DNA from: Pseudodesulfovibrio sediminis
Lineage (GTDB): Bacteria > Desulfobacterota > Desulfovibrionia > Desulfovibrionales > Desulfovibrionaceae
Direction of reading: 5' to 3'
DNA length: 64,000 nucleotides
Assembly: GCF_020886695.1 (NCBI RefSeq)
Contig: NZ_AP024485.1
Coordinates: 2,179,001-2,243,000, forward strand
Part shown: piece by piece, positions 7,451-37,211 of the stretch
Layout of the letters: each line of letters starts with the position of its first letter
Numbering within the stretch: the stretch's first letter is position 1
Position numbers and translations under genes: made by a program
Notes under the pieces: model-generated
Told to the model about the DNA's origin: nothing
The model's input: the letters and a program-made list of their open reading frames with translations, nothing else
Database searches by the model: none

Positions 7451-7804
7451 ATATAATTCCAGGTAGATAAAACATCTGAAGTCGCTGCATCCTGCAAATG
7501 ATAGCGCGTGAAATCACAAAGTACAGGGCAACAGGCCAGGCATTTCTCCAGTCAAAGCCGTACTCACTCTATTTTTTTTCATATCAAGTCAATCCTTTGA
7601 TATCACGGATTGTCGAATCTGTGAAAACGACACAGACAGACCCTGTCAAGCTGTTTCCAGCTACCTCTGACCTGATTTTACCTGCATTTCTCTGCATATT
7701 CACGGTTTCACCCAAAACCCGTGTTATGCTTTTCACGCTCGTGGCCATGGCTCCGGGTGACACGGGATGCACCCATCAACTTTTGACAACACGAGGTAAC
7801 TGAA
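7451..7804. other. Intergenic region between HD-GYP gene and tail tubular A-like gene
   Basis: A 354-base gap between divergent genes. The right half holds one copy of the shared phage-island control block (7645-7730). The left half is AT-rich with a T-run at 7572-7579 and a 7-bp inverted repeat, ATATCAA at 7581-7587 with TTGATAT at 7597-7603. No coding sequence is convincing here. Confidence 0.7.
7645..7730 (+). promoter_or_regulatory. Shared phage-island control block, copy 1
   Basis: GTCAAGC at 7645-7651 and CAAAACC-N5-TATGCT at 7713-7730. The starts of GTCAAG and TATGCT are 80 bp apart. After GTCAAGC it shares CTGTTTC with the copy before 25200, and TACCTCT at the same offset as the copy before 37265. 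TATGCT resembles a -10 element and ends 74 bases before the ATG at 7805. A GGGTG/CACCC hairpin lies between it and the gene. Confidence 0.7.
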
Positions 7805-8389
7805 ATGGCAACAAGCGTTATCGAAATCTGTAACAACGCCCTGCTTGATCTGGGTGAGGATGCGATCATGTCATTGGGCGACGAGACCAAAGCTGCCGGG
7901 CTGTGCAACCACCGCTGGCCGGCCATCCGCGATGCCGTGCTCCGTGCGCATCCCTGGAACTGTGCCATGGCTCAGGCCGAACTGGCCGCCGCATCCGCTG
8001 CCCCGCTCTGGAAATGGGAGTACAAATACATCCTGCCCACCGATTTCCTGCGGATCATCCAGATAGTCAGCACGGGCGGCGACACGATCGAGGACTGGGA
8101 AATCCAGAGCGGCACCATCTTCTGCAACGAGGAAGCCCCCATCTTTATTTCCTATGTCCGGTGCGAAAAAGACTCCAAGAAATATGATGCCCTGCTCACC
8201 GAAGCGTTCTCGGCCAGACTGGCCGCAGCTCTGGCGTATCCGCTCTCCGGCTCAACCGCGCTGGCGCAATCCTACTGGAAGACATATCAGGAGAAACTGA
8301 CCGAAGCTCGCGGCGTGGATGCACGCGAAGGCGTCCCGGAATCCGTCACCCCCACCAATTGGCTCGGCGCAAAAATGGGCGTGTTGTAG
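7805..8389 (+). CDS. Phage tail tubular protein A-like (T7 gp11-type)
   Basis: Protein of 194 residues resembling the head-tail adaptor family of podoviruses (T7 gp11, tail tubular protein A). Typical features are the N-terminal SVIEICNNALLDLGEDAI, the segment RWPAIRDAVLRAHPWNCA and the mid-protein WKWEYKYILPTDFLRII. In a virion this protein would form the ring between portal and tail nozzle. It stands alone between a core HD-GYP gene and rsmB, with no other phage gene within 11 kb. A good GAGG ribosome site precedes the ATG. The frame is intact and full length, so it does not look like a decaying relic. The upstream control block matches those before other phage islands in the window. Confidence 0.75.
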   Translation: MATSVIEICNNALLDLGEDAIMSLGDETKAAGLCNHRWPAIRDAVLRAHPWNCAMAQAELAAASAAPLWKWEYKYILPTDFLRIIQIVSTGGDTIEDWEIQSGTIFCNEEAPIFISYVRCEKDSKKYDALLTEAFSARLAAALAYPLSGSTALAQSYWKTYQEKLTEARGVDAREGVPESVTPTNWLGAKMGVL

Positions 8390-8498
8390 ATACGGCCATG
8401 TCCCAACACTGCATCCGCTCTCCTTTCCAAAACGCTCTGCACCGCCACGAGGAGAGGGCTATGGAGGGTTCTGAACCGCGGTAAAACGGGAAAAACAA

Positions 8499-8529
8499 AA
8501 GGCGCACTTTGTTACACAAAGTGCGCCTT
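8499..8529 (-). terminator. Rho-independent terminator of rsmB
   Basis: 14-bp perfect stem (8499-8512 with 8516-8529) and a 3-base loop. Read on the minus strand it is followed by TTTTGTTTTT. It could also stop transcripts from the tail gene on the plus strand. Confidence 0.8.
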
Positions 8530-8549
8530 GGTTAATATCGCCAGCAGTA

Positions 8550-9821
8550 TTATGTGGTCAGCAGTGCAGCGTAGAAGAACTCTCCCAGGGGCGAGTCCTC
8601 CGGGGTGGTCCATTCCGTCTTGAGCGCGACCTTGGGGTTGTGCTCGATAAACTGCTCGATGAGCTTTTCGTTTTCCTCGGGATTGAGCGTGCAGGTAATG
8701 ACGGCAATCCGCCCTCCGGGTTGCAGCGAATCAAGAGCATTCTGCAGGATTTCCATTTGAAGCTTTGTCAGGTCAACCAGATCGGATGGCTTGCGCTTCC
8801 ACTTGGTATCCGGACGACGGGAGAGCACGCCAAGGCCGGAGCAGGGCAGATCCAGCAGGATACTGCCGGGTTGACGCGGCGGACTGTCTGTGGCCGCATT
8901 GGCAACAAACGTCTCCACCTCGGACAATTCGCGGGTGAGCGCTGCCAGCCGCCCCTTGTGAGGATCTGAGGCAAAGACGTCCAGCCCTTTTTCGAGCAGG
9001 ATACGGGTCTTGCCGCCACGCCCGGCGCAGGCATCCCAAACCGGTGTGGGCCAGGATTCAGGAGAAAGGGCTTCGATGGCCTGACGGGCCGCAAAGGATT
9101 GGCGCGCCATGGGCTGGTCCGGCTCGTCCTCGAAAGCTGTACCCGCGGGCAGGGCAAAGCTGTACCCTTCGATATCAAGTATCTCCGGCCAGCCTGCGAT
9201 TTCAGGATAGATTTCATCCGCTTCGGGGTGGCCAAAGAGATTGAATCCCAGTGCCGGAGGGTGCAGTTGCGCTTCAAGATAGTGGATGGCGGCTTCTTCG
9301 CCATACTCCCTCCACCACATGTCCACCAGCCATTGTGGACAGGAATACCAACGCTTGAAAAATTCAGGCAGGGAAGCGTCCTTGCGATAATAATCGGGGT
9401 CGTGGGCGGCCTCGCCCAGCTCGGACACCCGTCTGAGCACGGCGTTGAACAACCCCGCCAGACGCGCCCCCGGTTTGGACTTGGAAAATTCAACGGCCCA
9501 GTCCACGGACGCATACGCCGGAACCTTGTCCAGAAACAAGATCTCGTAGGCGGCCACTCCCATGGCCAGACGCATTTTCGGATTGAGTTTGCCCGGGTCC
9601 TTGAGAAACCGGGACAGAACATACTCGATACGTCCCTTGAGCCGCATGTAGCCATAGGTCAGCTCCGTGGCCAACCCCGCATCGCGGGGGTCGATCTGAC
9701 CGGAGGAGAGCGCCACGTCAAGTGCAGCCTGGATATCCTGCTTGTCCATTAGGCAGCGGAAAAGTGCTTCGAGGGCCACCCGTCTCGCCGGAGGCAGGGG
9801 CTTAATGTAAGGTGCTTTCAT
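8550..9821 (-). CDS. rsmB: 16S rRNA (cytosine-5) methyltransferase, RsmB-like
   Basis: SAM-dependent m5C RNA methyltransferase of 423 residues. An N-terminal NusB-like RNA-binding domain (about residues 10-150) is followed by a Rossmann catalytic domain. The SAM-binding loop is DACAGRGGKT. The two catalytic cysteines are in LLDLPCSGLG (motif IV) and VITCTLNPEEN (motif VI). The NusB-plus-MTase layout is that of RsmB, which modifies C967 of 16S rRNA in E. coli; another m5C specificity cannot be excluded. It is monocistronic with its own terminator. Confidence 0.88.
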   Translation of the reverse strand: MKAPYIKPLPPARRVALEALFRCLMDKQDIQAALDVALSSGQIDPRDAGLATELTYGYMRLKGRIEYVLSRFLKDPGKLNPKMRLAMGVAAYEILFLDKVPAYASVDWAVEFSKSKPGARLAGLFNAVLRRVSELGEAAHDPDYYRKDASLPEFFKRWYSCPQWLVDMWWREYGEEAAIHYLEAQLHPPALGFNLFGHPEADEIYPEIAGWPEILDIEGYSFALPAGTAFEDEPDQPMARQSFAARQAIEALSPESWPTPVWDACAGRGGKTRILLEKGLDVFASDPHKGRLAALTRELSEVETFVANAATDSPPRQPGSILLDLPCSGLGVLSRRPDTKWKRKPSDLVDLTKLQMEILQNALDSLQPGGRIAVITCTLNPEENEKLIEQFIEHNPKVALKTEWTTPEDSPLGEFFYAALLTT

Positions 9822-9880
9822 GGGTATATCAGTTACGCCTACCGAAACGGCATTGCAAGCGACAACTTGCGAACAGAAAA

Positions 9881-9918
9881 CACCCCCTGTGACAATTCAG
9901 TGAAATTCACAGGGGGTG
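9881..9918 (-). terminator. Terminator of the small lipoprotein gene
   Basis: 12-bp perfect stem (9881-9892 with 9907-9918). On the minus strand it is followed by TTTTCTGTTC. It lies just after the stop of the lipoprotein gene at 9932. Confidence 0.75.
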
Positions 9919-9931
9919 CGGATTTTCCAGG

Positions 9932-10093
9932 CTAGTCAAGCATCTTCTTGGCAGCGTCACCGGCATCGTCAGCAGCCTTGTCCAACTGCTTGCCGGCTTT
10001 CTCCATGGGACCTTCTTCACTGCATCCGCTGAATGCCGGAACCATGAAGGCAAGAATACACGCCACAACAACAATCTTCTTCCAAACTTTCAT
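9932..10093 (-). CDS. Small entericidin-like lipoprotein
   Basis: A short gene of 53 codons. The translation begins MKVWKKIVVVACILAF, a lysine-plus-hydrophobic signal, and runs into the lipobox FSGC, giving a predicted mature lipoprotein of about 30 residues rich in Lys, Asp and Ala (AGKQLDKAADDAGDAAKK). This amphipathic, Ala/Asp/Lys-rich tail recalls entericidin-type lipoproteins. The ribosome site AGGAG is 7 bases before the ATG and a T-tailed terminator follows the stop, so the unit is complete. No function can be assigned beyond envelope location. Confidence 0.75.
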   Translation of the reverse strand: MKVWKKIVVVACILAFMVPAFSGCSEEGPMEKAGKQLDKAADDAGDAAKKMLD

Positions 10094-10249
10094 ATTAATC
10101 TCCTCTTAGTGTTTTCAGTATCTTCCCCATACCACAGCTTGTGAGAGTGGGACAGGTATGTTTTTTTTCGGGCAGCCCGACCGGAGGCGGAGTTCCTCTA
10201 CGGCGAGGATGAGATCTGTCCGAGAAATGTCCAGATGCCAAATCAAAGA

Positions 10250-12148: not shown

Positions 12149-12351
12149 GATTCTCGTCCTCCGGCCCTGAGAGTGGAGGAGTTTGCCAAGCAGGTCAAAT
12201 GCTAAAGTGGAGAAAATACCCCTTTACCCATCTCGGCAGATAACGCGAAAAACAAGGGCATCAGCCACTCTTTTTTTGACAATCACACGCGTATGGTCTA
12301 ACCAGATTCGGTTCCAGCCATCTGATAATTAGTAAGGATTATATATACACC

Positions 12352-13593: not shown

Positions 13594-13645
13594 CGAATAT
13601 CACGGCCGGTCTGTACCAGCCGACATCATTTGAGACGGAGAGAGA

Positions 13646-15469: not shown

Positions 15470-15476
15470 TCAAGCC

Positions 15477-15511
15477 GCGAGGGGAAAACGAAAGTTTTCC
15501 CCTCGCTTTTT
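15477..15511 (+). terminator. Rho-independent terminator of aspS
   Basis: 13-bp perfect stem (15477-15489 with 15494-15506), GAAA tetraloop, then TTTTT at 15507-15511. Confidence 0.92.
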
Positions 15512-15665
15512 GAAAAAGAAATCTTAATACTAGAACGTATCCACCTATCCGTCGCCTATGGGTCTCATGCATGATTCACCCTCAGCACGGCGCGATATAA
15601 AGTTTTGGAAGATTCTCAAGCGCCCCTTTTTTCAGCAAAGGGCTTGAGCCGCCGGAGGCAAAAAA

Positions 15666-16163: not shown

Positions 16164-16177
16164 CGGGAAGGAACAAC

Positions 16178-17182: not shown

Positions 17183-17192
17183 AGGGCACAGC

Positions 17193-19792: not shown

Positions 19793-20230
19793 TCAGGCAA
19801 CAGGGCTGTCCGGCCACTGGATGGCGTCCGGGAATGCCGCCTGTTGCGGGATATTTCTGAGTTCCCCACGATAGTCGGCCCACGCCAGCCGCGCTGTCTC
19901 ATCAAGCGGAGAATCTGCCATCTGTGTCCAATCGGATTCGGCCAGCAATCGGTCGCGTTCAGCCCGCACCTGCGTGGCGTCGTGTTCCGCCCTGGCATCT
20001 TCATCCACCACAGCAGACACAACCTCCTCGCGGTAGATCAAATCATCACCCTTGACCCACGCCGTGGTGTACTCGGTAAAGGCATCACGCTTCAAGGGCA
20101 CCGCCTCATTGTACCCAGCCTCATCCAACTCCTCGGGGGTCAGCTCCGCGAAAGAGCGGAGAAAACCGTTGATCTCCACGGTTGTCGGCGGCATACGTTT
20201 GATGCTTCCATCTTTGTATCTGTACATCAT
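19793..20230 (-). CDS. Phage tail-fibre assembly chaperone-like
   Basis: Protein of 145 residues. The C-terminal part is the recognisable one: RDRLLAESDWTQMAD, then LAWADYRGELRNIPQQAAFP and IQWPDSP, the pattern of phage tail assembly chaperones that accompany fibre genes. It is the last gene of the five-gene minus-strand tail operon, 5 bases after the fibre-like gene. In phages this protein helps fold or trimerise the fibre and is not part of the virion. Confidence 0.75.
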   Translation of the reverse strand: MMYRYKDGSIKRMPPTTVEINGFLRSFAELTPEELDEAGYNEAVPLKRDAFTEYTTAWVKGDDLIYREEVVSAVVDEDARAEHDATQVRAERDRLLAESDWTQMADSPLDETARLAWADYRGELRNIPQQAAFPDAIQWPDSPVA

Positions 20231-20235
20231 ATCTC

Positions 20236-21642
20236 CTAGTTTGGTTGTGCGTTGGAGGTATTGGCCGGATACAGCAATGTCCCGGTCCAGTCATATACTG
20301 TGTTACTAACGTTGCTAATGGCACTGACAAGCTTAAAACCATTGCTCAAGAATTTGACGACGGCACTATCAGTCCCATCATTGGTATAGGTGATGCCGTT
20401 GATAGTCAGTGTATCCAAGGCGCATCTAGTGCAGATGCACATACCATTAGCACTGCCGTTGCCCTTGTACGAACCGGAGAGGTCATATACCCCATCCTCA
20501 ATGTTAGAGGGAGCTAAAGCGACGAATCCATCAGGCGCTGGATATTCAAGGTCGGCCTCAGAGAAATGACCGGTTATCCTGGTCCCACTTGTATACACGC
20601 TGGCAACATGGATAAAATCCTTGAGCGTTGGGACGGTATACACAGGGTCAGTTCCAGTTGCAGGGGCAGGAGAGCCTGTGCCTAACCACGTCTCATTTTG
20701 ACGTACCCACGCTTTCCCTGTGTCTGTGTCGTATGCAATACCGATTGTATGTCCGGCACTAAGAGTAGTAGCTGAACACAAAACCACCGCGCTGCTACCA
20801 TTGGCAATTAACTGCAACTGGTTTGAAGTGAGCATAAAGGCATAGGAACCTGTTCCACCAGCCACCGGACCGGGCCATAAGAAATGATCTTCAAACCCAA
20901 ACCGCACACCAACTGACTGGGAGAGAGTATCAACATGAAACTCCATATACCATTTGCCGGTACTGAGCAGGGTACTCCGTGAGGCTCCCCACCCGCCCGG
21001 ACCTTGGATAGATACATTACCATCATGATACACAGGCGAAGTCGTAGCAGTCAGCACATTATAAGTCGTTCCGTTGTTCGTCGGCGTGTCCACGGATTGA
21101 TCAGCAGACACGAAAGTCCAGTCATTACCATTGCCAGAGGTGTCTGCCCCTAAGTCTACTGCGTTGCCAAATTCAAGCCGCGTGTGCAACGTCAGGCCGG
21201 AAATACCTCTTGGTACCCACAGGCCTGGAACCGCCGTCGAAGCCCGCCAGAAGCTCGTGTAATCCAGCGCACTCTCAACAATGGCCAGCCGCGAATAATA
21301 CCCTTTGTCGCTCCCGCAATACTCGGTCAGGACATTGCTCACGAACTCAGCGTAAGTGGTACCGACTGCCCCACCAAAAGACGAGAGCTGGACGTCCTGC
21401 GCCCACACAGTCACAGCAGTGCCCACCTTGCGGATGGTCATCAGGTAGTGGTTGGTGACGTCCACAAGCGCATGTTCGGTGTCAACGATCGGATCAGTGG
21501 GCTTAAATCCAAAGGCAATGGTGCAGTCCGTGGCCACGGCTCCGGTGGAGGAAAAGCCTGACTCGAGCAGGGCCGAGTAAGGCAACGGAACCGGATACAG
21601 CCCCCTGTCAACATTTTTCAACATACCAGCAGGCTGCATCAT
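20236..21642 (-). CDS. Phage tail appendage protein with SPRY-like domain
   Basis: Protein of 468 residues rich in Thr, Ser, Gly and Asn. A central region from about 165 (DTSGNGNDWTFVSADQSVDT) through KWYMEFHV and GVRFGFED resembles the SPRY/concanavalin-like modules used in phage receptor-binding proteins. Its ATG overlaps the stop of the upstream fibre gene by 4 bases, so the two are translationally coupled. It is likely the distal fibre or spike. GC content is visibly lower than in the rest of the operon, as is common for receptor-binding genes that exchange between phages. Confidence 0.65.
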   Translation of the reverse strand: MMQPAGMLKNVDRGLYPVPLPYSALLESGFSSTGAVATDCTIAFGFKPTDPIVDTEHALVDVTNHYLMTIRKVGTAVTVWAQDVQLSSFGGAVGTTYAEFVSNVLTEYCGSDKGYYSRLAIVESALDYTSFWRASTAVPGLWVPRGISGLTLHTRLEFGNAVDLGADTSGNGNDWTFVSADQSVDTPTNNGTTYNVLTATTSPVYHDGNVSIQGPGGWGASRSTLLSTGKWYMEFHVDTLSQSVGVRFGFEDHFLWPGPVAGGTGSYAFMLTSNQLQLIANGSSAVVLCSATTLSAGHTIGIAYDTDTGKAWVRQNETWLGTGSPAPATGTDPVYTVPTLKDFIHVASVYTSGTRITGHFSEADLEYPAPDGFVALAPSNIEDGVYDLSGSYKGNGSANGMCICTRCALDTLTINGITYTNDGTDSAVVKFLSNGFKLVSAISNVSNTVYDWTGTLLYPANTSNAQPN

Positions 21643-22607
21643 GCCGACACTCCGTTGACAATGGTCAGGAAATGATTGGTCCCGTCGCTGACGATCTCAC
21701 CTTGCGCCAGCCCGATGACAGTATCGTACTCACCGTCTATGGAGCCATAGCTGGCCGAGGGATTGAGCGCGTTGTCGCCTGAAGCGACAAAACGGATCAC
21801 ACCGGCAGCCACAGGCACACCAAGGTCAACCGCCCCGCCGGACGTGTCAATGGTCTGGAGTGCGCCAGTGGCCGGGGAAGGCGTAGCCGTGGTCATGGCG
21901 GTGGCCGTGGCCGTAAAGCCCACCTCCAGTTCCTTGGAGACATCCGCGCGGAGCAGCGTGTCTTCGCCATCTATAATGTTCAGGATATCATCGATCAGCT
22001 CGCACCCGGCAACAGCCTTCCCGACAGCACCGAATCCAAGATTGGTCAACGCACTGACCGGTGTTATCGCGCCGGTTCCGCCCTGGGAAACGGAAACCGG
22101 CAGTATGAGGGCGTCCATTGCGGCCACATCCCTGTTCACGAGGTTGTCTCCGTCCCCATTCCAGGCCAGGAATCGGTCAGAACTCGGTTCCGGCAGCGCC
22201 ACGCCCGAGACAGCGGACGACACCCGAAAGGAGATGGTCCGGTCCAGACGCTCTGACAAGGCCTGACAGATCATGGTCAGCTTATCCAGAGCGGCCTCGT
22301 GGGTGGCGGCGGGAAAGGCGTCATTCTCCACATAATCAACCTCCTGCACCATGTTCGGTGAGCGTCGGATAACCAAAATCTGCCCGCCTTCGGGGGGCAC
22401 GGTCAAGGTGCAGGTGCCGCCGTTCTGTTCCCCGGCACCGGAGAGCTGGTAGTCCGTTCCCGGCACCTGCGTGTATTCAATCCCTTCGGCATCCGTGAGC
22501 ACGACTTCGATATCGTCGTCACACAGGAACATGAAGGGGATGGCAAAGGTTCCGGTGGCCCCGTTGCCGCCATAGATGGTCTTTGTCTCAGTGGATGAAA
22601 TGGTCAC
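21639..22607 (-). CDS. Phage tail fibre protein (T7 gp17 N-terminal-like)
   Basis: Protein of 322 residues. The N-terminal 150 residues match the virion-attachment domain of T7-type fibres: YGGNGATGTFAIPFMFLCDD, the DYQLSG turn, LTVPPEGGQILVIRRSPN and DALDKL-like helix (HEAALDKLTMICQALSERLD). The distal part is Gly/Ala/Thr-rich without similarity I recognise. It sits between the tail tubular B-like and internal protein genes and the SPRY-like appendage, the same relative order as T7 genes 12, 14 and 17. Confidence 0.75.
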   Translation of the reverse strand: MTISSTETKTIYGGNGATGTFAIPFMFLCDDDIEVVLTDAEGIEYTQVPGTDYQLSGAGEQNGGTCTLTVPPEGGQILVIRRSPNMVQEVDYVENDAFPAATHEAALDKLTMICQALSERLDRTISFRVSSAVSGVALPEPSSDRFLAWNGDGDNLVNRDVAAMDALILPVSVSQGGTGAITPVSALTNLGFGAVGKAVAGCELIDDILNIIDGEDTLLRADVSKELEVGFTATATAMTTATPSPATGALQTIDTSGGAVDLGVPVAAGVIRFVASGDNALNPSASYGSIDGEYDTVIGLAQGEIVSDGTNHFLTIVNGVSA

Positions 22608-22610: not shown

Positions 22611-23075
22611 CTAGCTCCTTGCGCCATAGATTTTCGACCCAAGGGACAGGATGGATCGTTCCGGTGCCCCCCCGGAATTGATACGCAGGGCGTTGGCGCG
22701 CTGCTGGCCCTGTTCCAAAAGGGTCTCCGCTTCAAGATCACCGTCAAAGAGCGCATCCTCTTCAGCCTGCCTGTCCTTGATGCGACGGGCATCCCGGATG
22801 AGTTTCTTGGACCCGGACATGGTCAGGTTCGCGCCTCCCCACGAGGTATTCTCCTTGCCTCGCTCCTGCTCGCGCGCCTCACGGATCTCCTGCGCCTTTC
22901 CGGCCGCATCCTGCTGACTGTCCCAGGCATCGCTCCGGGCCTGCACTTCCACAAGCCCGGCCTGCGCGGACGCCTTGGCCTTATCCGTTGTCATTCCTCC
23001 AGACATTTCCTGCAGATCCTGTACAAAACCGAGACCTTGCTGAAACATCTGTGCTGTCTGTTGATTCATTCCCAT
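22611..23075 (-). CDS. Putative phage internal or structural protein
   Basis: Protein of 154 residues, predicted mostly helical and charged. It opens MGMNQQTAQMFQQGLGFVQD and has a long Gln/Ala/Glu helix (residues 30-75) followed by KKLIRDARRIKDRQAEED. Position between gp12-like and gp17-like genes, size and helix content suggest an equivalent of T7 internal virion protein gp14, but similarity is too weak to be certain. The intergenic spacing on either side is under 30 bases. Confidence 0.5.
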   Translation of the reverse strand: MGMNQQTAQMFQQGLGFVQDLQEMSGGMTTDKAKASAQAGLVEVQARSDAWDSQQDAAGKAQEIREAREQERGKENTSWGGANLTMSGSKKLIRDARRIKDRQAEEDALFDGDLEAETLLEQGQQRANALRINSGGAPERSILSLGSKIYGARS

Positions 23076-23103: not shown

Positions 23104-25200
23104 TTAGTTGTTGACGATAAGGTGCGGCACGATCATCAAAACGGTCATGGGGAGCGGCTGATCCTGAACAATGGTCAGCACGCCGTCCCGATTCCATCCC
23201 TTGGGAAAATTGACGATCTTGTCTCCGCAGAAAATACCGGGGGCCTGCCCCATGGGCATGGCCGAAGTCCTGAAATAGACCGGCTCAAGATGACTCTCGT
23301 CCGGGCCTATCTTGCCGCCCAGAGTGTTGTGGAACCGGGCCGCGACCTTGGTGATCCGTTTGATTTTCGTCTGCGCCGTGCCGCGCTGGCTTCCGGCCTC
23401 GATACGCATGGGTTGCAGGGTGGAGACATACGGCAGCCCCACCTGTACCTTTGACGCCGGACGATCCAGAAGCAAACTGCCGTCCTGTCCCACGACCTTG
23501 TCGGACAACACGGCTCCGTCAGCCAGGACCGAAACGGTTTTCCCGACCAGATGGTCCAGCCCCAGCACGGAGACTGTCGGCTCTCCGTCGTAGGTCAACC
23601 CGCTGTCCACAAAGAATCCGTCCTCGATGCTCCCATCGAAGTGGCCTTCCAAAAACTCGATATAGCGTTTCTCCCGACCATCCACCGTGCGGCGGACAAC
23701 GGCCCATAACTCATCGCGTTTGTCGGTGTCGTTATAGATCGAGGTCACACTCTCCACGCTGCCGTCAGTGATGATCCTCGCCCAGGCAGCCACCTCCTGA
23801 TCCGGCACATAGGTCAAGGCCACAAGGGCACCGTCCGCACGCACGGCGTAGAGAATGGAATCCGGCTCCTGCACATAGGCGAGTCCGGTCAGTCCTCCTT
23901 CGGAGATATGTTCGGAGAGGATTGTCAGATCCTTGGAGACATAGGCGTCGGCTTCAAAGCGATATGACATTTCCCGTATCTTCTTGCCTGCCCGCTGAAT
24001 ATACAGCGTGGCGAACCCAACCGCTTCCGGGCGGGTGGAGGACGCGCCGCAGGAGCCTTCATGATTGGCCTTGACGGTCGCCGGAGATATCGGGTCGCTG
24101 GAGGAACCGGACACGGTCCACTCTCCCCCGGCCGTGCCGATCCACAACCGACTGCGCGACACGATGAATTCAATGCCGTTGGCCTGTCTGCCAGCCAGGG
24201 TGACCTCTATGCCGTCATCATCCAGAGGCAGCTCTCCAGCCGGAGCCTCGGTACGGTCGCCCGGCTCGAAACACTCCCAGAACGCAGCATTGAGCTCCCC
24301 TTCCGCATCCCAGATGGATTCGATCTGCGTGCTCGTGGGCTCATCGGCAAAATACACCGCCACGTCCGCTGTGGCGGCGATGAAATTCCGGGTGCCCTTG
24401 TACCGATAGTAGCGGGTCGTTCCGTCGGCATGCTGCCCTTTGAGACCGTCCAGCTTCTCGAAACCACCACCCATGAGCAGCAGAAACCGATCTCCTGCTT
24501 TTCCGTCTCTGACAGCATCGCCGTTCTTGTCTTCGATTTCCATATCCCGCCAGCCATCAAGCGGGACTTCGCGCGTCTTGAGCCGGAAATCCGTGGTTTC
24601 GCCTGTCCGGGACATCCAGATGGTGCCGGGCTTGTCCGGTGTACTGGCCAGCACGAGCCGCTGTTCGTAAAACCCTACGCAGGAAGGATAATTACCCGTG
24701 TCCCAACTCTCCGGCCGCCCGGTGAAGTCCATCTCTTCGATGATCCATTCATCATGATCGACCCGCGCCAGTGTACGCGGAGGATGATCCGGATGAACCA
24801 GTATGAGTTCTCCGGCAGACTGGGCGTAACGCAGTTGATCGAATTCATTCACGGTGTACGGGATCTCACGCCTGTACTCGCTCTCACCGGACAGAACAAC
24901 GCCGTGATCGGAAAAGACTCGCATGCGTCCCTGCCCGGACTCGTCTTCGCCAAACTCCAGCACATAGGTCTGGGACGAGTTGAATTCGAATGGAATAAGC
25001 AAAACCCGCTTATCGGAATTCATGGCCTCGGTCACGAACCGGAAACCGGACCGCCGGGAAGTGCCGCCATGGGGATGCACCTGGAAGTTCTCCAGGGTCC
25101 GACAGCCGTTGAAGTACTTTGAAATGTCAGTCCGGCCTTCAAGCCGGGGACTGATCTCCCCGGCTGTGAAACTGGTGACCGCTGGTGTTGCAATGCTCAT
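23104..25200 (-). CDS. Phage tail tubular protein B-like / tail nozzle protein
   Basis: Large structural protein of 698 residues, first gene of the tail operon. The N-terminus SFTAGEISPRLEGRTDISKY, followed by GCRTLENFQVHPHGGTSRRSG, is characteristic of podovirus tail nozzle proteins (T7 gp12 group). Beta-rich segments follow, including FYEQRLVLASTPDKPGTIWMS. In a particle it would extend the adaptor ring made by the gp11-like protein encoded 15 kb away at 7805. GGAG lies upstream of the ATG, and a copy of the shared control block ends 47 bases before the start. No frameshift is visible. Confidence 0.75.
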   Translation of the reverse strand: MSIATPAVTSFTAGEISPRLEGRTDISKYFNGCRTLENFQVHPHGGTSRRSGFRFVTEAMNSDKRVLLIPFEFNSSQTYVLEFGEDESGQGRMRVFSDHGVVLSGESEYRREIPYTVNEFDQLRYAQSAGELILVHPDHPPRTLARVDHDEWIIEEMDFTGRPESWDTGNYPSCVGFYEQRLVLASTPDKPGTIWMSRTGETTDFRLKTREVPLDGWRDMEIEDKNGDAVRDGKAGDRFLLLMGGGFEKLDGLKGQHADGTTRYYRYKGTRNFIAATADVAVYFADEPTSTQIESIWDAEGELNAAFWECFEPGDRTEAPAGELPLDDDGIEVTLAGRQANGIEFIVSRSRLWIGTAGGEWTVSGSSSDPISPATVKANHEGSCGASSTRPEAVGFATLYIQRAGKKIREMSYRFEADAYVSKDLTILSEHISEGGLTGLAYVQEPDSILYAVRADGALVALTYVPDQEVAAWARIITDGSVESVTSIYNDTDKRDELWAVVRRTVDGREKRYIEFLEGHFDGSIEDGFFVDSGLTYDGEPTVSVLGLDHLVGKTVSVLADGAVLSDKVVGQDGSLLLDRPASKVQVGLPYVSTLQPMRIEAGSQRGTAQTKIKRITKVAARFHNTLGGKIGPDESHLEPVYFRTSAMPMGQAPGIFCGDKIVNFPKGWNRDGVLTIVQDQPLPMTVLMIVPHLIVNN

Positions 25201-25247: not shown

Positions 25248-25323
25248 AGCATACCCCCGGTTCTGCGCCGTGGAGGGCACAGGCTACTGAACGGATTCAG
25301 GAAGTATGCAGAAACAGCTTGAC
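25248..25323 (-). promoter_or_regulatory. Shared phage-island control block, copy 2
   Basis: Read on the minus strand: GTCAAGC (25323-25317), interior AGTAGCCTGTGCCCTCC, then CAGAACC-GGGGG-TATGCT ending at 25248. The starts of GTCAAG and TATGCT are 70 bp apart, exactly 10 less than in the other three copies. Fifty-three bases at the upstream end align without gaps to the copies before 36755 and 37265. It is followed by a CCGGGG-type hairpin and the start of the tail nozzle gene. Confidence 0.7.
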
Positions 25324-27949: not shown

Positions 27950-27989
27950 CTGTCACCCAGCTTTCTATTGTCCGTCACGAAACCGTAAC
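27950..27989 (+). promoter_or_regulatory. Pho box array upstream of pstS
   Basis: Heptamers in strict 11-bp register: CTGTCAC (27950), CTTTCTA (27961, degenerate), CCGTCAC (27972) and CCGTAAC (27983). This matches the direct-repeat structure of PhoB sites, CTGTCAY with 4-base spacers. It ends 76 bases before the pstS ATG. Phosphate starvation control is inferred. Confidence 0.72.
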
Positions 27990-28065
27990 ATGCCGGGCAT
28001 ATCACTAGCACTCAAGTCAACGAGGACTGCATTTCAATTTCGCATAATTCAAGGAAGGTAACACA

Positions 28066-28875: not shown

Positions 28876-28910
28876 GTGAATTGAACCGACACACCGAACA
28901 AGTCATCAAC

Positions 28911-28940
28911 TCCCGTCGGGGTGCCATCACCCCGACGGGA
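28911..28940 (+). promoter_or_regulatory. Hairpin between pstS and pstC
   Basis: 13-bp perfect stem (28911-28923 with 28928-28940) and a CCAT loop, with no T-run. It sits 35 bases after the pstS stop. Such elements commonly protect the upstream message, raising binding protein over permease levels; leaky termination is the other option. Confidence 0.65.
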
Positions 28941-28965
28941 TAATGCGTGTAAAGAGGCGAACATA

Positions 28966-29889: not shown

Positions 29890-29898
29890 GGAAAGGAT

Positions 29899-30834: not shown

Positions 30835-30851
30835 ACAACACCACACACTTC

Positions 30852-30902
30852 CCAAACAGACAGGCCCTGCACCGAGTATCGGTGCAGGGCCTGTCTGTTT
30901 GG
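30852..30902. terminator. 24-bp perfect hairpin between pstA and glycosyltransferase
   Basis: Arms 30852-30875 and 30879-30902 pair perfectly, with a GTA loop. The gene ends on both sides converge on it. Short T/A runs inside the arm ends (TGTTT / AAACA) allow bidirectional termination. Confidence 0.8.
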
Positions 30903-30915
30903 CTCAGAGGGCGAA

Positions 30916-32007: not shown

Positions 32008-32010
32008 GGA

Positions 32011-34716
32011 TCAGCCTTCCACCTTCTCCATATCAAGCACCATCTCCACCAGATCCTCGTCATAGGGATCAGGCTTGATCACGAAACCGAATTTCTTGGA
32101 AAGCCCCTGCATGGCCTTGTTCTCGGCCATAGTCTGTCCGGTCAAGCGGGACGTGCCGCGCAGCTTGGTATATTGGATACCCTTGTGAAAGAGCATGGAC
32201 CCCAGCCCTTCGCCCTTCTGGTCGGAGCGGACCACGATGGCGAATTCGGCTTCGGTATTATCCGGCTTGGTGTTGGTGCGCATGACTCCGAGAGTCTCCG
32301 GCTCGCCCCTTTCATCCAGTGCGGTGGCGATGAAGGCCATCTCACGGTCATAATCGATCTGGGTGAACCCGGCGATATCCTTGTGGTCAAAATCACGCTG
32401 CACCACGCCGAAGAACCGCAGGCGCAGATCTTCGTCCGACAGATTTGCCAGGAAGACCCGATGGGTCTCTTCGTCTTCGGGACGAATGGGACGCAAGGTG
32501 ACATTGCGTCCGGTCTTGAGCGTGACACACTCTTCCAGCTCCCTCGGATAGGGCCTGATGGCCAGCCGGGCCTCGCCATGTCCGTCAAAGGGGGCAATGT
32601 CGATCTTACCGCTCAGGGCCAGCACGCCTTCGGCGTCGGCATAAAGCGGGTTGATGTCGATATAGGTGATCTGCGGGACATCAACGATCAACTGGGAAAG
32701 CTGAATGAGGGTCAGACAGATGTCATCAATGTCAACAGGCGGTTGCGAAGGCGTTCCCTTGAGCAGCGTCGAGATGCGAGTGCGTTCCACCAGCTCCTTG
32801 GCCAGACTCATGGAGAGCGGCGGCAGGGTAAGGGCCTGATCCTGAATGACTTCACGGGCCATGCCGCCATGTCCGAAGTGGATCACCGGACCAAAGACCG
32901 AGTCCACGGTCGCGCTCACGGAAAGTTCATGTGCGCCGGGTCTGCGACCCATTTTCTGGACCGTGAACCCCTCGATATAGGCGTCGGGCCGCTCACGAGT
33001 GCAGCGGGCCAGTATTGACGCCCCGCCTTCCCAGACGCGCTCCGGCGTTTCCAGATCAAGCAGCACGCCGCCCACGTCAAAGGGTTGGGGAATCTGGGGA
33101 CTCCTGAGCTTCAGCGCCACGGGGTAGCCGATCTCGTCAGCGGCTATGACGGCTTCCTTGGCCGACACCGCGATGCGGGTCTCGACAACGGGGATGCCGT
33201 ATGCCGCCAGAATGGCCTTGGCCTCCGGTTCGGTCAGGGACGTGCGCTCTTCCTGCAACGCCTTGTCCACGATGGCGCGTGCGCCCGAGGTATCCGGGAA
33301 AAAGTCGGAAGGCAGGGAATCCGGGGTCTCGATGAGCATGTCCTGATTTCGCAGATACTCGGCCATGTACAGAAAGGCCCGCACCGCATGGGTGGGCGAA
33401 TCATATGTAGGAATGCCCGCATCACGAAAGACCTCGCGGGAGTGCTCTGCCGCGCCGATACCGAGCCAGGCGGTCAGCACCATGCGCTTGACCCGTTTGA
33501 GGGAATCACGCAGGGCCTCGGCCACCTCCACGTCAGGCTGTGCCGTCCACGGCACATGCATGACCAGGATGCCGTTTGAAGTCTTGTCCTTGATCAAAAG
33601 TTTGAGGACTTCCGAGTACTGTTTGCCATCCGCGTTGAACGGGATATCCACGGGATTGGCCCGAGACCAGTTCTCTTCGCCGAGTACGCCGTCAATGGCC
33701 TTGATGGTGTCCTCGGACAGGGGAGCCAGCTTGCCGCCGCCAGAGAGCAGTCTGTCCGCCGCCAGAATACCGGCGGAGGTGCCGTTGGTCAGGATGGCGA
33801 GATTCTTGCCATAGACCTGCCTCGGCGTACCCAGTGTCTGGGCCGCGTCAAAAAGGCCGTCGATGTTCTCCACCCGGAGCATGCCCGCACGCCGGAAGGC
33901 CACGTCATAGACCGCGTCCATGAGGTGATGGTCGCCGGTTTCACGCAGTTTCAGGTCGCCCAGCACCGTATCCAGGGCCTGCCCGGGCCGGATGACCAGC
34001 ACGGGTTTGTTGCGCGAGGCGGCTCGGGCCGCGGACATGAACTCGCGGGCGTCCTTGATGGACTCCACATAGAGCATGATCGACCGTGTCAGCGGGTCCG
34101 AGCCGAGATAGTCCAGAATATCGGAAAAAGAGACATCAATACGACTGCCAAGGGCGATCATGTGGGAAAAGCCCACGCCCTTGGCTATGGCCCAGTCAAG
34201 GACCGTGGCGAACAGGGAGTCTGACTGCGAAATGAAAGCGACCTTGCCCGGCTCCACCGCCGCGTGGGCCAGGGAAGCGTTGAGATTCAACGAAGGGACC
34301 ATGAACCCCAATGATTTCGGGCCGATAATACGAATATCCGGTGGTTTGGCAATGCCGAGAATAGTGGCTTTGATGTCATCCCGTTCCTCTTTGCTCATGG
34401 AAGCGAAGCCCGCGCCCATGAGCACGGCGCCGCGTGTGCCGCGCTCCTTGAGCGAGTGAATGATCTCCGGCACTTCGTCCAGAGGAGAACAGACCACTGC
34501 CAGATCCGGGGTCTTTGGCAGATGCTTGACCGACGGATGGGTAAGCACGCCGGAAATGGCCTCGGCTTCGTTTGAGACGGGCATGACCGGTCCGAGAAAA
34601 CCGCTTGCCATAATGTTGCGCATGACAATATTGCCCGCGTTCTTGGGGTCATTGGTGGCGCCGATGACCGCCACGGACCTGGGCTTGAAGAGATATTGAA
34701 GATTGGTGACGCTCAT
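32011..34716 (-). CDS. Acyl-CoA synthetase (NDP-forming) fused to GNAT acetyltransferase
   Basis: Protein of 901 residues from the ATG at 34716, which has AAGGAG 5 bases upstream; a longer frame to 34788 lacks this. The order is CoA-binding domain (AVIGATNDPKNAGNIV), succinyl-CoA ligase-like domain, ATP-grasp domain (LTEPEAKAILAAYGIPV, about residue 495 on), then a C-terminal GNAT domain from about 735 (NVTLRPIRPEDEETHRVFL). This architecture is that of Pat-type protein lysine acetyltransferases or ADP-forming acetyl-CoA synthetases. It may make acetyl-CoA or acetylate metabolic enzymes. The synthetase catalytic histidine could not be verified by eye. Confidence 0.88.
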   Translation of the reverse strand: MSVTNLQYLFKPRSVAVIGATNDPKNAGNIVMRNIMASGFLGPVMPVSNEAEAISGVLTHPSVKHLPKTPDLAVVCSPLDEVPEIIHSLKERGTRGAVLMGAGFASMSKEERDDIKATILGIAKPPDIRIIGPKSLGFMVPSLNLNASLAHAAVEPGKVAFISQSDSLFATVLDWAIAKGVGFSHMIALGSRIDVSFSDILDYLGSDPLTRSIMLYVESIKDAREFMSAARAASRNKPVLVIRPGQALDTVLGDLKLRETGDHHLMDAVYDVAFRRAGMLRVENIDGLFDAAQTLGTPRQVYGKNLAILTNGTSAGILAADRLLSGGGKLAPLSEDTIKAIDGVLGEENWSRANPVDIPFNADGKQYSEVLKLLIKDKTSNGILVMHVPWTAQPDVEVAEALRDSLKRVKRMVLTAWLGIGAAEHSREVFRDAGIPTYDSPTHAVRAFLYMAEYLRNQDMLIETPDSLPSDFFPDTSGARAIVDKALQEERTSLTEPEAKAILAAYGIPVVETRIAVSAKEAVIAADEIGYPVALKLRSPQIPQPFDVGGVLLDLETPERVWEGGASILARCTRERPDAYIEGFTVQKMGRRPGAHELSVSATVDSVFGPVIHFGHGGMAREVIQDQALTLPPLSMSLAKELVERTRISTLLKGTPSQPPVDIDDICLTLIQLSQLIVDVPQITYIDINPLYADAEGVLALSGKIDIAPFDGHGEARLAIRPYPRELEECVTLKTGRNVTLRPIRPEDEETHRVFLANLSDEDLRLRFFGVVQRDFDHKDIAGFTQIDYDREMAFIATALDERGEPETLGVMRTNTKPDNTEAEFAIVVRSDQKGEGLGSMLFHKGIQYTKLRGTSRLTGQTMAENKAMQGLSKKFGFVIKPDPYDEDLVEMVLDMEKVEG

Positions 34717-34952
34717 GAGGCTCCTTGGGCGTAGCATGGGGTACGGGGTCGTGAGGAGACGGTAACGTTTTTTACACAGGTCAGGCAATAGAATGATTCT
34801 ATCATCTCAAGCTTTACGCCGAATTTTCATCACGCGAAACTCCAATCGAAAAAAAAATGATAAAAAACGTTTATGACCCTAAAGTTTTCTTTCCAAATAC
34901 CGATAGACCCCTGTGAGGGGTAATTTTATCCTGTAAAAAGGAGCGTTTTGTC

Positions 34953-35414
34953 ATGGCAATAGAATCATTGGCACAACAAACATCGGTATTTGTGGATTCC
35001 TTGGGAATCAAACCCACCGCTACGGAAAAAAAAGCGGATGACGCAAGTCAGGAAGCCAAGACTCCTGAACAGGGGGATACCATCACCATCTCCGAAGAAG
35101 CCCGCGCTCTGGCGGCCATGGAAAAGCCCGACGAATCCAGCAGCAACTCTTCTGAAGAAGGCAACACCATGGATTCCACCATCCAGATGCTCAAGAAGCA
35201 GATCGAAGAGCTGGAGGAGGATATCAAGGAGCTGGAGGATGGCGACCTGCCTGAAAAGGAGAAGTTGACCCAACTCCAGGACAAGCAGGTCCAGCTCATG
35301 CAGCTCAAGGACCAGCTCCTCAAGGCCCAGCAGGAACAACTCGGAATTGAAGGCATGGCCGATGGCGGCGGCACCCGCGCCAACGGAGCCGGCAACAGCG
35401 CGGCGTCCTTCTAG
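34953..35414 (+). CDS. FlxA-like coiled-coil protein
   Basis: Acidic protein of 153 residues. The N-terminus looks disordered (DSLGIKPTATEKKADDAS), with a segment TITISEEARALAAM that resembles those in flagellar-hook-associated and FlxA-like proteins. Residues 70-130 form a long coiled coil (IQMLKKQIEELEEDIKELED, QLQDKQVQLMQLKDQLLKAQ). A Gly/Asn-rich tail follows. No flagellar genes are near. AAGGAG precedes the ATG and a strong terminator follows. Confidence 0.72.
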   Translation: MAIESLAQQTSVFVDSLGIKPTATEKKADDASQEAKTPEQGDTITISEEARALAAMEKPDESSSNSSEEGNTMDSTIQMLKKQIEELEEDIKELEDGDLPEKEKLTQLQDKQVQLMQLKDQLLKAQQEQLGIEGMADGGGTRANGAGNSAASF

Positions 35415-35438
35415 CCCACCGAAATATATACACGCAAA

Positions 35439-35472
35439 AGACGCGTCAGGCTGAACCTGACGCGTCTCTTTT
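35439..35472 (+). terminator. Terminator of the FlxA-like gene
   Basis: 12-bp perfect stem (35439-35450 with 35456-35467), 5-base loop, then CTTTTT. Confidence 0.88.
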
Positions 35473-35534
35473 TGCCGTTCTCTCACTGTGAACGCATGCC
35501 GCAAAAACCATGCCTCCTGATCTCAGAGGGTACG

Positions 35535-36755
35535 TCAGTCCGCACCACAAAGACTTCGTAACAGGCAAGACCGGGCCGCCAGGTTGACGGGATCATCCAG
35601 ACAACACCCAAGCCGATCTGCACGCCCGCTGCGCTCTCCACATGATGCAGGACCGATCCATCGACCCGTGTCCGGATCATAGTCGTGATGCCCGAACCGG
35701 ACAAACCCGGTATCAGGGTCATACAATCCACCGGCAAAACCGAGCGGCATGCGCAGGCCCGGATTGGAATCCCACAGGATGTCACCAAACGGCCCGTATT
35801 GCGTCATTTTGACCATGTCGCCATTTTCAGCGACAACCGCTTTCAGTGAACCGACCTGATCATAACCGAGTTGAAACAAGGCTGAACCGATGGTCACGGC
35901 CTGCGGCAGCCGCGCCTCTCCTTCATACAGGAAAACGTATTCTGTTTCGCCGTCAAAAAAACGGCCCAGACGATCCCGATCAAGCCAGTCGTATGCTTCC
36001 AAAGGCGAACCATTCACCAGCTTCTGCGCGCGCAGATTGTCTTCGTCATGCTGGTAGGCAATCACATGCCCAGACGGCATATGCACGGCCTGAAGGCACA
36101 ACTCTGGCCCATAGTGATACTCGGTTCTGGTGTTTCCTTCGATCCTGGCTGATCGAAAGCCCCGGTCATCATGCGCATACTGCACCTGCTCCACGGACAA
36201 CAGACGGTCGTCATCCGTGTAGGAGAACACGCGCATGAACGGAGTCCGTCCCATACGATAATCGGCTTTGCGGCGACCTCTTCCATCGTACTCGAAATCC
36301 TCGCACCACCCCGTGTCGGCAATGACCGACGTCAGACGCCCCGCATGATCATACACAAAACGCCATTGCTCACGCCGGCCATCAAGCCGTTCGGTGCGGG
36401 ACTCCACGCGCCTATCCGCCGCTTTTTTCAGCTCGATGAAGTAGGGCGCGTCACCGGCGGCCAGCTCTGCCTTGCTCTTGTCGCCCCATGTCGCGGGTTT
36501 GCCCTGTTCACCCAGGGAATGATTCCACGAAAAGCCGAACCCTTCATGCCAGGGACGCCACTCCACCGGTTTGCGAACCGCCCACCAGTTGGCATTTGCC
36601 CGCTCAGTCTTCCATTTCTTTGACAATGCGCCGACACGGCGCACAGGCTCAAACGTACCGTCCGCATAGTGAATCCACTCCCGCTCATAGCAGTCGCAAT
36701 CAGGGTTGTAGGTGAATGCGCAATACCGATCGTGCATATGATCGTCATACAACAT
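35535..36755 (-). CDS. RHS-repeat core protein in a phage island
   Basis: Protein of 406 residues from the ATG at 36755, which has AAGGAT 8 bases upstream. The N-terminal 130 residues are unlike known families (YDDHMHDRYCAFTYNPDCDC, many aromatic residues). Residues 130-350 carry YD/RHS-type repeats (FVYDHAGRLTSVIADTG, FEYDGRGRRKADYRMG, LGYDQVGSLKAVVAENG). The RHS core is recognisable as GLYDPDTGFVRFGHHDYDPD. After it the usual DPIGFAGG-NLYGYxxNDP part is diverged but in frame, and the protein ends soon after without a toxin domain. The gene is headed by the shared control block, so I treat it as a tail or decoration component of the phage set. Confidence 0.65.
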   Translation of the reverse strand: MLYDDHMHDRYCAFTYNPDCDCYEREWIHYADGTFEPVRRVGALSKKWKTERANANWWAVRKPVEWRPWHEGFGFSWNHSLGEQGKPATWGDKSKAELAAGDAPYFIELKKAADRRVESRTERLDGRREQWRFVYDHAGRLTSVIADTGWCEDFEYDGRGRRKADYRMGRTPFMRVFSYTDDDRLLSVEQVQYAHDDRGFRSARIEGNTRTEYHYGPELCLQAVHMPSGHVIAYQHDEDNLRAQKLVNGSPLEAYDWLDRDRLGRFFDGETEYVFLYEGEARLPQAVTIGSALFQLGYDQVGSLKAVVAENGDMVKMTQYGPFGDILWDSNPGLRMPLGFAGGLYDPDTGFVRFGHHDYDPDTGRWIGPASCGERSGRADRLGCCLDDPVNLAARSCLLRSLCGAD

Positions 36756-36853
36756 GAAATATATCCTTGGTTGCCGGTGTTCAGGAGAGGGGCGGACCAC
36801 TCCGCCCCAAACCTGGGATGCATGTTCCGGGGCCGTTCCCCGAAATCACCACC

Positions 36854-36939
36854 ACCATACCCCCGGTTTTGACCGACTCAGCCAATCGGAGCCCACAGGC
36901 TACTCAAAGGATAATAAAAGCATACGATCAGCGCTTGAC
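36854..36939 (-). promoter_or_regulatory. Shared phage-island control block, copy 3
   Basis: Minus-strand reading: GTCAAGC (36939-36933), interior AGTAGCCTGTGGGCTCC, then CAAAACC-GGGGG-TATGGT ending at 36854. The starts of GTCAAG and TATGGT are 80 bp apart. It ends 98 bases before the RHS-core ATG; two GC hairpins lie in the leader. Confidence 0.7.
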
Positions 36940-37125
36940 ACCTTTTCCGGTTCCCCGACACGCCCCGCCATTTTTGCCACCAAAAGGACGGTCAAATTTC
37001 AACATAAGCATACTTCAACAATCCGGAAAAACTGGAAATAAACAGGAACAACAACAGACTACAAACCATCCTTCCCGCATATGCTCCTCAAGCGTCCCAT
37101 GGTCCGGGGCCACCCCCCGATTCCT

Positions 37126-37211
37126 GTCAAGGACTCATCCCATACCTCTCAACTCCTCTCGGTATCCCCTGCCCTCCATTTGCGCGTCGCGACCAAAACA
37201 GGGTGTATGGT
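37126..37211 (+). promoter_or_regulatory. Shared phage-island control block, copy 4
   Basis: GTCAAGG (37126-37132), interior CATACCTCT and TGCCCTCCA at the same offsets as copy 2, then CAAAACA-GGGTG-TATGGT ending at 37211. The starts of GTCAAG and TATGGT are 80 bp apart. It ends 53 bases before the holin ATG at 37265. Confidence 0.7.

Follow-up and report, generated by a model that had tools for sequence, protein, structure and literature searches.

Phage-type islands and their shared upstream block

The window analysed here is a stretch of 64,000 nucleotides of Pseudodesulfovibrio sediminis (contig NZ_AP024485.1), which corresponds to bases 2,179,001-2,243,000 of the closed 3.76 Mb chromosome. 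It contains separate islands of phage-type genes, including two tail genes, an RHS gene and a terminase gene, and four copies of one conserved sequence, referred to below as the block, lie ahead of genes of these islands (Table 1). That a common promoter-like block stands ahead of the separate phage islands is strongly supported by comparison.

In the first-pass annotation the block was described as starting with GTCAAG and ending with CARAACM-N5-TATGST. The four copies were confirmed at the positions and on the strands claimed for them, and the two ends indeed start 80, 70, 80 and 80 bp apart in copies 1 to 4. Every copy is aimed at a gene and ends 74, 47, 98 and 53 bases before the start codon (copies 1 to 4), in agreement with the claimed range of 47-98 bases. 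Copies 2, 3 and 4 also align without gaps over their first 53 bases as stated, with 35 identical bases between copies 2 and 3, 34 between copies 2 and 4, and 32 between copies 3 and 4 (shuffle means 13-15, none of 2000 shuffles reaching any of these values), while copy 1 shares 28, 23 and 24 of these bases with copies 2, 3 and 4, respectively (reached by 0, 21 and 6 of 2000 shuffles). GC-rich hairpins had been proposed for the leaders as well, but the predicted RNA fold was no better than that of shuffled sequences in three of the four leaders (z 0.16, 0.04 and -0.17), and only the leader of copy 3 stood out from its shuffles (z -2.37). Leader hairpins are not a general feature of the block.

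Table 1 Features of the window with positions in the window, strands and best family matches
Feature	Position	Strand	Remark
Block copy 1	7645..7730	+	TATGCT at 7725-7730
Tail tube A-type gene (TTPA, tail A)	7805..8389	+	phrog_394, E 3e-53
Tail fibre assembly chaperone-type gene	19793..20230	-	PF16778, E 1.7e-24
Island B gene, PHROGs family of unknown function	20236..21642	-	phrog_27411, E 2.4e-14
Tail fibre/spike N-terminal type gene	21639..22607	-	phrog_1640, E 3.2e-33
Second gene of island B	22611..23075	-	relative after TTPB in 5/6 clusters compared; no family match
Tail tube B-type gene (TTPB, tail B)	23104..25200	-	phrog_376, E 3.9e-181
Block copy 2, 70-bp form	25248..25323	-	TATGCT at 25248-25253
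RHS/YD-repeat protein gene	35535..36755	-	PF25023, E 3.3e-18; PF05593
Block copy 3	36854..36939	-	TATGGT at 36854-36859; not a row of model R1
Block copy 4	37126..37211	+	TATGGT at 37206-37211
Small membrane-type protein, holin-like by eye	37265..37681	+	phrog_2524 (unknown function), E 4.3e-10
70-aa gene after small membrane protein	37668..37880	+	kept in 6/6 clusters compared
Terminase large subunit (TerL)	38856..40142	+	PF03237, E 2.4e-11; phrog_2, E 7.2e-43
120-aa gene after TerL	40129..40491	+	kept in 6/6 clusters compared; no family match
75-aa winged-helix (HTH_17-type) protein, candidate activator	49407..49634	-	49% identical to phage protein
DUF5675 protein	49637..50044	-	PF18925, E 9.6e-34; 55% to phage, first gene after phage block
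Divergent control region	50045..50195	.	exact 10-bp inverted repeat CAAATGTCTA (50092-50101) / TAGACATTTG (50134-50143)
CI/S24-type repressor, candidate repressor of HTH gene	50196..50942	+	phrog_4 (transcriptional repressor), E 2.1e-11

Whole-genome search for the block

The exact pattern CARAACM-N5-TATGST occurs four times in the genome, always within the window (reversed pattern: three occurrences). Since this pattern was fitted to the same four copies, a fair test requires a profile without rows from this genome. Model R1, which uses sequence only, rests on an alignment of 66 regions upstream of three orthologous genes, with three rows from this genome; a leave-own-out profile with 63 rows, none of them from this genome, was run on 184 kb of it. 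On the whole genome R1 recovered six blocks (E 2.6e-12 to 2.3e-5), and the next matches were at 0.22 and 1.6. The leave-own-out profile found the four window copies at E 1.9e-10, 6.9e-10, 2.3e-9 and 4e-7 and the other two blocks, which lie beyond the window, at 1.8e-10 and 1e-4, followed by a next match at 0.74, and its reversed-sequence control gave a best E of 2.

Of these two blocks, one precedes the major capsid gene (phrog_3437, E 5.9e-66), and the other precedes a small gene that is followed by the portal gene (phrog_332, E 2e-125) and a gene of scaffold/protease-like type. Each of the six blocks is directed at the start of a phage-type or RHS gene. The putative regulon in this genome comprises the tail tube A gene; tail tube B together with the fibre and chaperone genes; RHS; the small membrane protein with terminase; capsid; and portal with scaffold. 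The first-pass annotation had placed four blocks over 30 kb. Its view that separate phage islands share one block holds, but the set has to be enlarged to six blocks spanning 252 kb. In this genome matches are few and do not lie ahead of unrelated genes, and in relatives that keep the islands the block is retained together with them.

A search of the relatives with the exact pattern was dropped in favour of the alignment model: it gave 28 matches in 18 of 36 genomes, of which only 12 had GTCAA within 40 bases of the beginning of the slice read, and two of these 12 (L042 and L043) are apparently chance matches inside coding sequence.

Anatomy of the block

A survey was made of 88 upstream regions (28 of tail B, 30 of tail A and 30 of the small membrane protein gene), from which, as from the selection sets below, L035 and L038 were excluded because tail B is in pieces there. 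GTCAA could be paired with a downstream box in 83 of them, at a distance of 80 bp in 49, 70 in 17, 79 in 13, 81 in 3 and 60 in 1; for the 76 regions scoring at least 3 the corresponding counts are 47, 16, 12, 1 and 0. The pairing script permitted distances of 60-90 and chose the best-looking box, so single spacing assignments are biased and the low-scoring rows L012, L037, L074, L076, L083, L091 and L092 may be misassigned, but the pile-up at 70 and 80 was not built in. Among the five regions without a pair, L016 visibly has the block with an A before GTCAA, and L078 and L089 are misplaced slices.

Alignment A1 was made from 66 of the 83 paired regions, and its positions are numbered on the assumption that TAnnnT is the -10 element, with conserved T, A and T at -12, -11 and -7. 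These three positions, GTCAA and one A at -21 are invariant, and the A's adjoining -21, G at -14 and G at -16 are among the nearly invariant ones. A conserved -35 element was not found in A1. The conserved TAnnnT and G at -14, without a -35, may be those of a sigma-70-type promoter, and the fixed hexamer that had been claimed upstream of the -10 reads better as an AAA near -20 to -22 plus the G at -14, as in an extended -10. The possibility that GTCAAG is a divergent -35 (CTTGAC) was discarded, as no suitable -10 was seen by eye.

Between GTCAA and the -10 region lie about 50-60 bp of helically phased repeats. In the 80-bp form (60 sequences compared with shuffles) the interior repeats at lags of 10, 11, 21, 22, 31 and 32 with z 10.2, 6.2, 14.9, 5.9, 7.3 and 5.6, and the arrays of the sister genus g14 (18 sequences) are raised at lags 21 (z 3.8) and 32 (z 7.6), with a broad rise at 24-30. 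Lags at multiples of the helical turn suggest that the array tends to one face of the helix, and the spacings of 70 and 80 differ by one turn. Of the bipartite promoter proposed earlier, made of a distal site and TATGST with its hexamer, the promoter-like character can be kept, and the distal part is better described as a phased array starting from GTCAA.

Arrays belonging to different genes of one genome show greater similarity (mean 0.677, 196 pairs) than arrays of a single gene taken from different genomes (mean 0.514, 868 pairs; none of 500 within-gene-class permutations reached the observed value), tail B being left out of this comparison for its other spacing. This holds in 19 of 22 genomes, the exceptions being G002, G010 and G026. 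Such likeness is compatible with a trans-acting factor that has a drifting site, or with gene conversion, and a single factor may act on all blocks.

Conservation of islands and block in the genus and sister genera

Tail A and the small membrane protein were matched in all 36 genus genomes (with one in-stretch TGA in 10 of the 40 matches of the latter), and so was tail B, which had no match in 24 genomes of other families of the order; tail B is only 47 aa long in G021 and in pieces in G008. Terminase was matched in 35 of the 36, only as a distant partial match in G029 and not in G008, a genome 82% complete. In G001 the tail A, tail B, small membrane protein and terminase loci are up to about 700 kb apart. 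In G017 the small membrane protein and terminase genes are still found together with capsid, portal and scaffold within 10 kb.

Purifying selection was estimated from the ratio of nonsynonymous to synonymous divergence (dN/dS) in pairs with a synonymous difference of 0.05-0.65, with the misframed L078 and L089 excluded from this and the congruence test. Median pairwise values were 0.15 for tail A (28 sequences, 189 of 378 pairs), 0.26 for tail B (28 sequences, 178 of 378), 0.14 for the small membrane protein (30 sequences, 268 of 435) and 0.16 for terminase (30 sequences, 228 of 435). Protein distances at the four loci correlate with r 0.72-0.85, each above all 999 permutations. Features of a gene transfer agent (GTA) are thus present, namely vertical inheritance and purifying selection (near-universal occurrence in the genus, congruent distances among island loci) and a location at several loci; near-universal genes under purifying selection suggest a GTA-like or effector-carrying particle.

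The block itself was matched by R1 in all 36 genus genomes, with 3-25 matches each at E up to 0.1 and the fewest in G017 (3) and G031 (4). Among 120 genomes of the order 56 had such a match, nine of them in the genus. Four others, G060, G118 and G140 of genus g14 and G116 of g20, had 9, 20, 10 and 8 matches (best E 3.4e-9 to 2.9e-6), and the remaining 43 had one or two each with a best E no better than 2.8e-4; these E-values are rough, and weak matches outnumber the nominal rate. Two weak matches sit directly ahead of a capsid gene, in G088 (g14) and among the eight of G116. In g14 the block precedes capsid (71%), portal (64%), scaffold (47%) and tail A (61%), as well as tail B (50%) with one gene in between, and it also precedes a different terminase and RHS, MuF-like and Tlde1-domain genes. 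The block-headed terminases L271 and L277 of g14 are of another sort than that of Pseudodesulfovibrio, as if replaced under the same promoter. Capsid loci with a block were also found in g39 (three) and g45 (one), at E 1.5e-9 to 1.9e-6. Orthologous phage genes are preceded by the block throughout the genus, and four sister genera have it as well. Of the 149 family genomes, 25 have a capsid of at least 66% identity, and these belong only to g1, g14, g20, g39 and g45; five further family genomes have a capsid of 49-53%, and second copies were seen in G000 (40%) and G016 (46%).

Genes headed by the block

For 75 block loci, taken from the best listed matches in 11 genomes and hence not random (L251, a misplaced slice, was excluded), the downstream genes were classified; six of the query proteins stem from the same loci, which therefore match by construction. 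A recognised class was found in 65: RHS in 24, which makes it the commonest, capsid in 8, portal in 7, tail A and tail B in 5 each, the small membrane protein, a 491-aa family and a kinase in 4 each, MuF-like in 3 and scaffold in 1. The label MuF-like comes from weak PHROGs matches (E 0.0015 and 0.0049) and from what we take to be a motif of that family. As for the ten other loci, L271 is terminase-like and L283 like a small terminase subunit (TerS) according to PHROGs, L277 resembles L271, L284 has a Tlde1 domain, L278-L280 end at contig ends, and L285, L287 and L289 have no class. A TerS-like gene was found in the sister-genus genome G118.

A W-x-x-x-KP-x-x-W-x-P stretch was seen by eye at the N-terminus of many block-headed or island-adjacent genes (L193, L202, L212, L239, L281, L287, L289 and the window gene at 35535-36755), joined to varied C-terminal parts including RHS repeats, as if it were a common particle-targeting domain. 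A block-headed family of about 490 aa beginning with MFDFGKSL (L208, L200, L250 and L252) has no Pfam or PHROGs match. A Ser/Thr kinase with an Lcl C-terminal domain is headed by the block in several genomes (L221, L246, L209 and L245).

A phage relative with a single block

The closest viral contig is IMGVR_UViG_3300009379_000034, 37.5 kb in length, whose capsid and tail A are 80%, TerL 67% and portal 66% identical to those of the islands. It carries one block (E 1.4e-4 for that record) with GTCAA and the box 81 bp apart and with raised lags 10, 11 and 21. Its gene order is helix-turn-helix (HTH) gene, block, DUF5675, a 159-aa membrane-type protein without a match to that of this genome, TerS, terminase, portal, scaffold, capsid, tail A, tail B, ejection-type proteins, fibre and chaperone. 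A CI-like repressor lies upstream of the operon, and integrase-like pieces were recognised by eye at both ends. This temperate podophage contig thus differs from the islands in its compact operon and in its TerS, ejection-type proteins, CI-like repressor and integrase pieces. Its other genes had no match in the islands of this genome at E 0.01 (184 kb searched), except for a nuclease-type host homologue near the capsid. The block was not found in the other nine virus records or the other 36 viral loci searched.

Because a single block in the phage precedes one operon that holds most of these genes, the islands look like a broken-up podophage late operon. The simplest history would be that the late operon of such a phage was split, its pieces keeping or receiving the late promoter, and the change would have run from phage operon to islands.

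A second, related podophage prophage is present in the same genome (L153, chromosome 594-614 kb, and L154), with portal, capsid, tail and internal virion proteins in one run; its capsid is 40% identical to that of the window system, and L154 has relatives of the HTH and DUF5675 genes. The block was considered as a promoter of this prophage, and no block was found there at E up to 5.

A candidate switch

At 49407-50942 lies an operon of DUF5675 and HTH genes with a divergent repressor gene (Table 1). The phage homologue of the HTH protein sits just upstream of the phage block. The repressor matches PF00717 (Peptidase_S24) with 25.0 bits against a cutoff of 23.3 (E 1.6e-5 for 50274-50942). An (A/T)TGTC(T/C)A box and a TTGAC box lie between repressor and operon in 17 of 17 aligned sequences, and among 16 clade regions fetched for holding the repressor the HTH gene is present in 15 and DUF5675 in 12, the one region without HTH ending early. 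A search of the 16 control regions at E up to 1 detected no block upstream of the DUF5675-HTH operon. The repressor was rejected as a strict marker of the regulon; it has matches in 78 of 149 family genomes and therefore is a candidate only. At the position that we take, by eye and from LexA and CI, to be the catalytic Lys, the repressor of this genome has Arg, so the Ser-Lys pair is incomplete; with a presumed catalytic residue lost, it need not answer DNA damage by cleavage. Across the window gene and the relatives L290-L305 it looks as if self-cleavage had been given up repeatedly.

The predicted model of the HTH protein is a winged helix with a predicted confidence (pLDDT) of 76, and its top Foldseek matches are RacA, MerR-type, BldC and Xis proteins. 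A search of its sequence against solved structures was discarded, the best match (E 0.0078) being part of an unrelated protein. According to the cited text, BldC, RdfS and Xis are small winged helix-turn-helix (wHTH) proteins that assemble head-to-tail along DNA, and the subunits of BldC on a long site are one DNA turn apart (PMC5859096, PMC11963761). The HTH protein is predicted to be a small wHTH protein as well, with a weak fold match and putative DNA binding. Stacking at one turn, as in BldC, would suit the phased array.

Other genes of the islands

Phage-derived head, tail and packaging genes are present in this genome (TerL, portal, capsid, and tail A and B types). Next to the terminase gene a 706-aa protein (40585-42705), Gly-rich and then Asn/Asp/Ser/Thr-rich, is encoded without a block of its own and without a family match, and relatives of it lie near the cluster in G003, G012, G017 and G030. 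A TPR lipoprotein-like gene (37886-38806), a host-type gene within the island, lies antisense between the small membrane protein and terminase genes here and in six genomes compared.

Proposed origin and function of the system

We consider it likely that the block is the late promoter, with an activator array, of a domesticated podophage whose late operon was split into islands with their own copies. Promoter activity, the identity of the activator and DNA transfer are parts of this reading that we infer from sequence. Since a -35 is not conserved, RNA polymerase would need an activator bound along one face of the array, and the best candidate would be the HTH_17-type protein encoded at 49407-49634, whose putative fold is that of BldC, RdfS and Xis. 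The CI/S24-type repressor would hold off the HTH gene via predicted operators in 50045-50195; upon induction the islands would fire together and give a short-tailed particle that packages DNA. The particle may also bear RHS-type effectors, and the whole would then be a GTA-like element. A wider history is put forward tentatively, as possible without being favoured: over five genera the podophage late operon may have "exploded" into islands that each bear the late promoter, the arrays of a genome co-evolving with a single small, filament-forming wHTH activator, and RHS, MuF-like, Tlde1-type and kinase genes may have been recruited to this promoter to form a dispersed, effector-delivering GTA.

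Several observations weigh against this interpretation. No pair was found at the searched spacings of 60-90 ahead of the small membrane (holin-like) gene in L116 (G009) and L117 (G024); the 70-bp form (16 sequences) has no lag beyond z 4, and the g14 arrays are not raised at lags 10-11. The block is weak (E 0.009-0.03) at the capsid of G015, the tail A of G019 and the capsid of G017. Tail B is in pieces also in G025 and G029, terminase is in two frames in G024 and 34 aa long in G021, and the capsid match of G026 is in two places. A small terminase and an ejection-type protein were not found in the searched stretches of this genome, and the phage operon contains nothing that corresponds to the RHS gene. 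As for the switch, the HTH protein reaches 24.9 bits with PF12728, under the cutoff of 27, and its Foldseek matches are weak (RacA 5i44 E 0.014, BldC 6ama E 0.12, Xis 4j2n E 0.41; none at or below 0.001). The repressor family occurs also where the capsid does not, and several of its relatives (L290-L305) lack the Ser or the Lys presumed to be catalytic.

Among the alternatives, a particle made for effector delivery, in which the domesticated head and tail would bring RHS, MuF-like or other proteins into contact with other cells and the packaging of DNA would be of minor importance, is unlikely but not to be neglected. It would account for RHS-type genes being the class most often headed by the block (24 of the 75 loci), accompanied by MuF-like, Tlde1-domain and other genes, and MuF toxins are described in the cited text as a phage-borne family (PMC5576092). 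However, in this genome only one RHS gene stands under a block, and terminase, portal and capsid are kept, with terminase under purifying selection, which points to DNA packaging; the two roles are compatible. Control by read-through is improbable by comparison: the AAA...G.G between -10 and -35 and the leaders would load a Q/AlpA/GafZ-like antiterminator, in line with AlpA and GafZ elements being placed between -10 and -35 in the sections cited (PMC9371919, PMC11150451) and with an S24-type repressor beside a small DNA-binding protein, which recalls AlpR/AlpA. Yet the long conserved part of the block lies upstream of -35, three of the four leaders fold no better than shuffles, and the 75-aa HTH protein is shorter than AlpA, for which DNA-contacting residues up to 142 are given in the cited part (PMC9371919).

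The block might also be a repeat spread by transposition or gene conversion and no promoter at all, since its copies are alike within a genome, block-headed RHS genes are multi-copy and three G118 blocks lie at contig ends, as repeats do. This is very improbable, because all six blocks aim at a gene start (the four window copies at 47-98 bp), the same genes bear the block with fixed spacing in different genomes, and the conserved positions -12, -11, -7 and -14 are typical promoter positions. A fossil promoter amid decaying prophage debris is about as improbable, although genes are broken or missing in G021, G024, G025 and G026 and the small terminase and ejection-type protein mentioned above were not seen in the stretches searched; the median dN/dS of 0.14-0.26, the congruent distances at four loci, the near-universal presence in the genus and arrays that change in concert all speak for a present role.

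Comparison with known gene transfer agents

The GTA of Rhodobacter capsulatus (RcGTA, with GafA) is of a different phage type from the system described here. Like the element proposed here it is a domesticated phage with a dedicated activator and some ectopic genes, and the cited sections describe no shared promoter block of such kind (PMC9638019, PMC6854486). In the GTA of Caulobacter crescentus (CcGTA), one activator set (GafY, IHF and GafZ) has been reported to serve about 18 promoters, and the repressor RogA stands atop its control (PMC11150451, sections cited). A dispersed GTA regulon is therefore already a known kind. However, according to the same sections the structural genes of CcGTA form one 14 kb cluster (PMC11150451), whereas here the structural operon itself is dispersed, with podophage-like gene types. 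What differs here is that copies of the promoter are scattered along with the structural operon and that the same promoter also heads RHS, MuF-like, kinase and other genes. For the GTA of Faecalibacterium prausnitzii (FpGTA) only two operons, and no shared promoter, are named in the portion cited (PMC12946183). Dd1 of Desulfovibrio desulfuricans is a GTA in the same wider bacterial group, for which the cited text predicts a small terminase, Ddes_0720, beside the large one, unlike the island of this genome, where none was seen (PMC11841831, PMC6854486).

GTAs have been described in the cited passage as hard to find, since they look like remnants of prophages and are often divided between several loci (PMC11841831). 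Among the papers searched, none pairs Pseudodesulfovibrio with a gene transfer agent, and of those that mention it together with a prophage none is, by title, on this element. The shared promoter block lets the pieces of such a dispersed element be gathered across a clade from sequence alone, and the phage with the same operon behind a single block offers a before-and-after picture of domestication. The analysis also yields a 75-aa candidate activator, a candidate repressor with putative operators, and a set of putative promoters with concerted sequence drift. Should particles be made, gene transfer would be an inherent capability of these sulfate reducers, perhaps coupled to the delivery of effectors.

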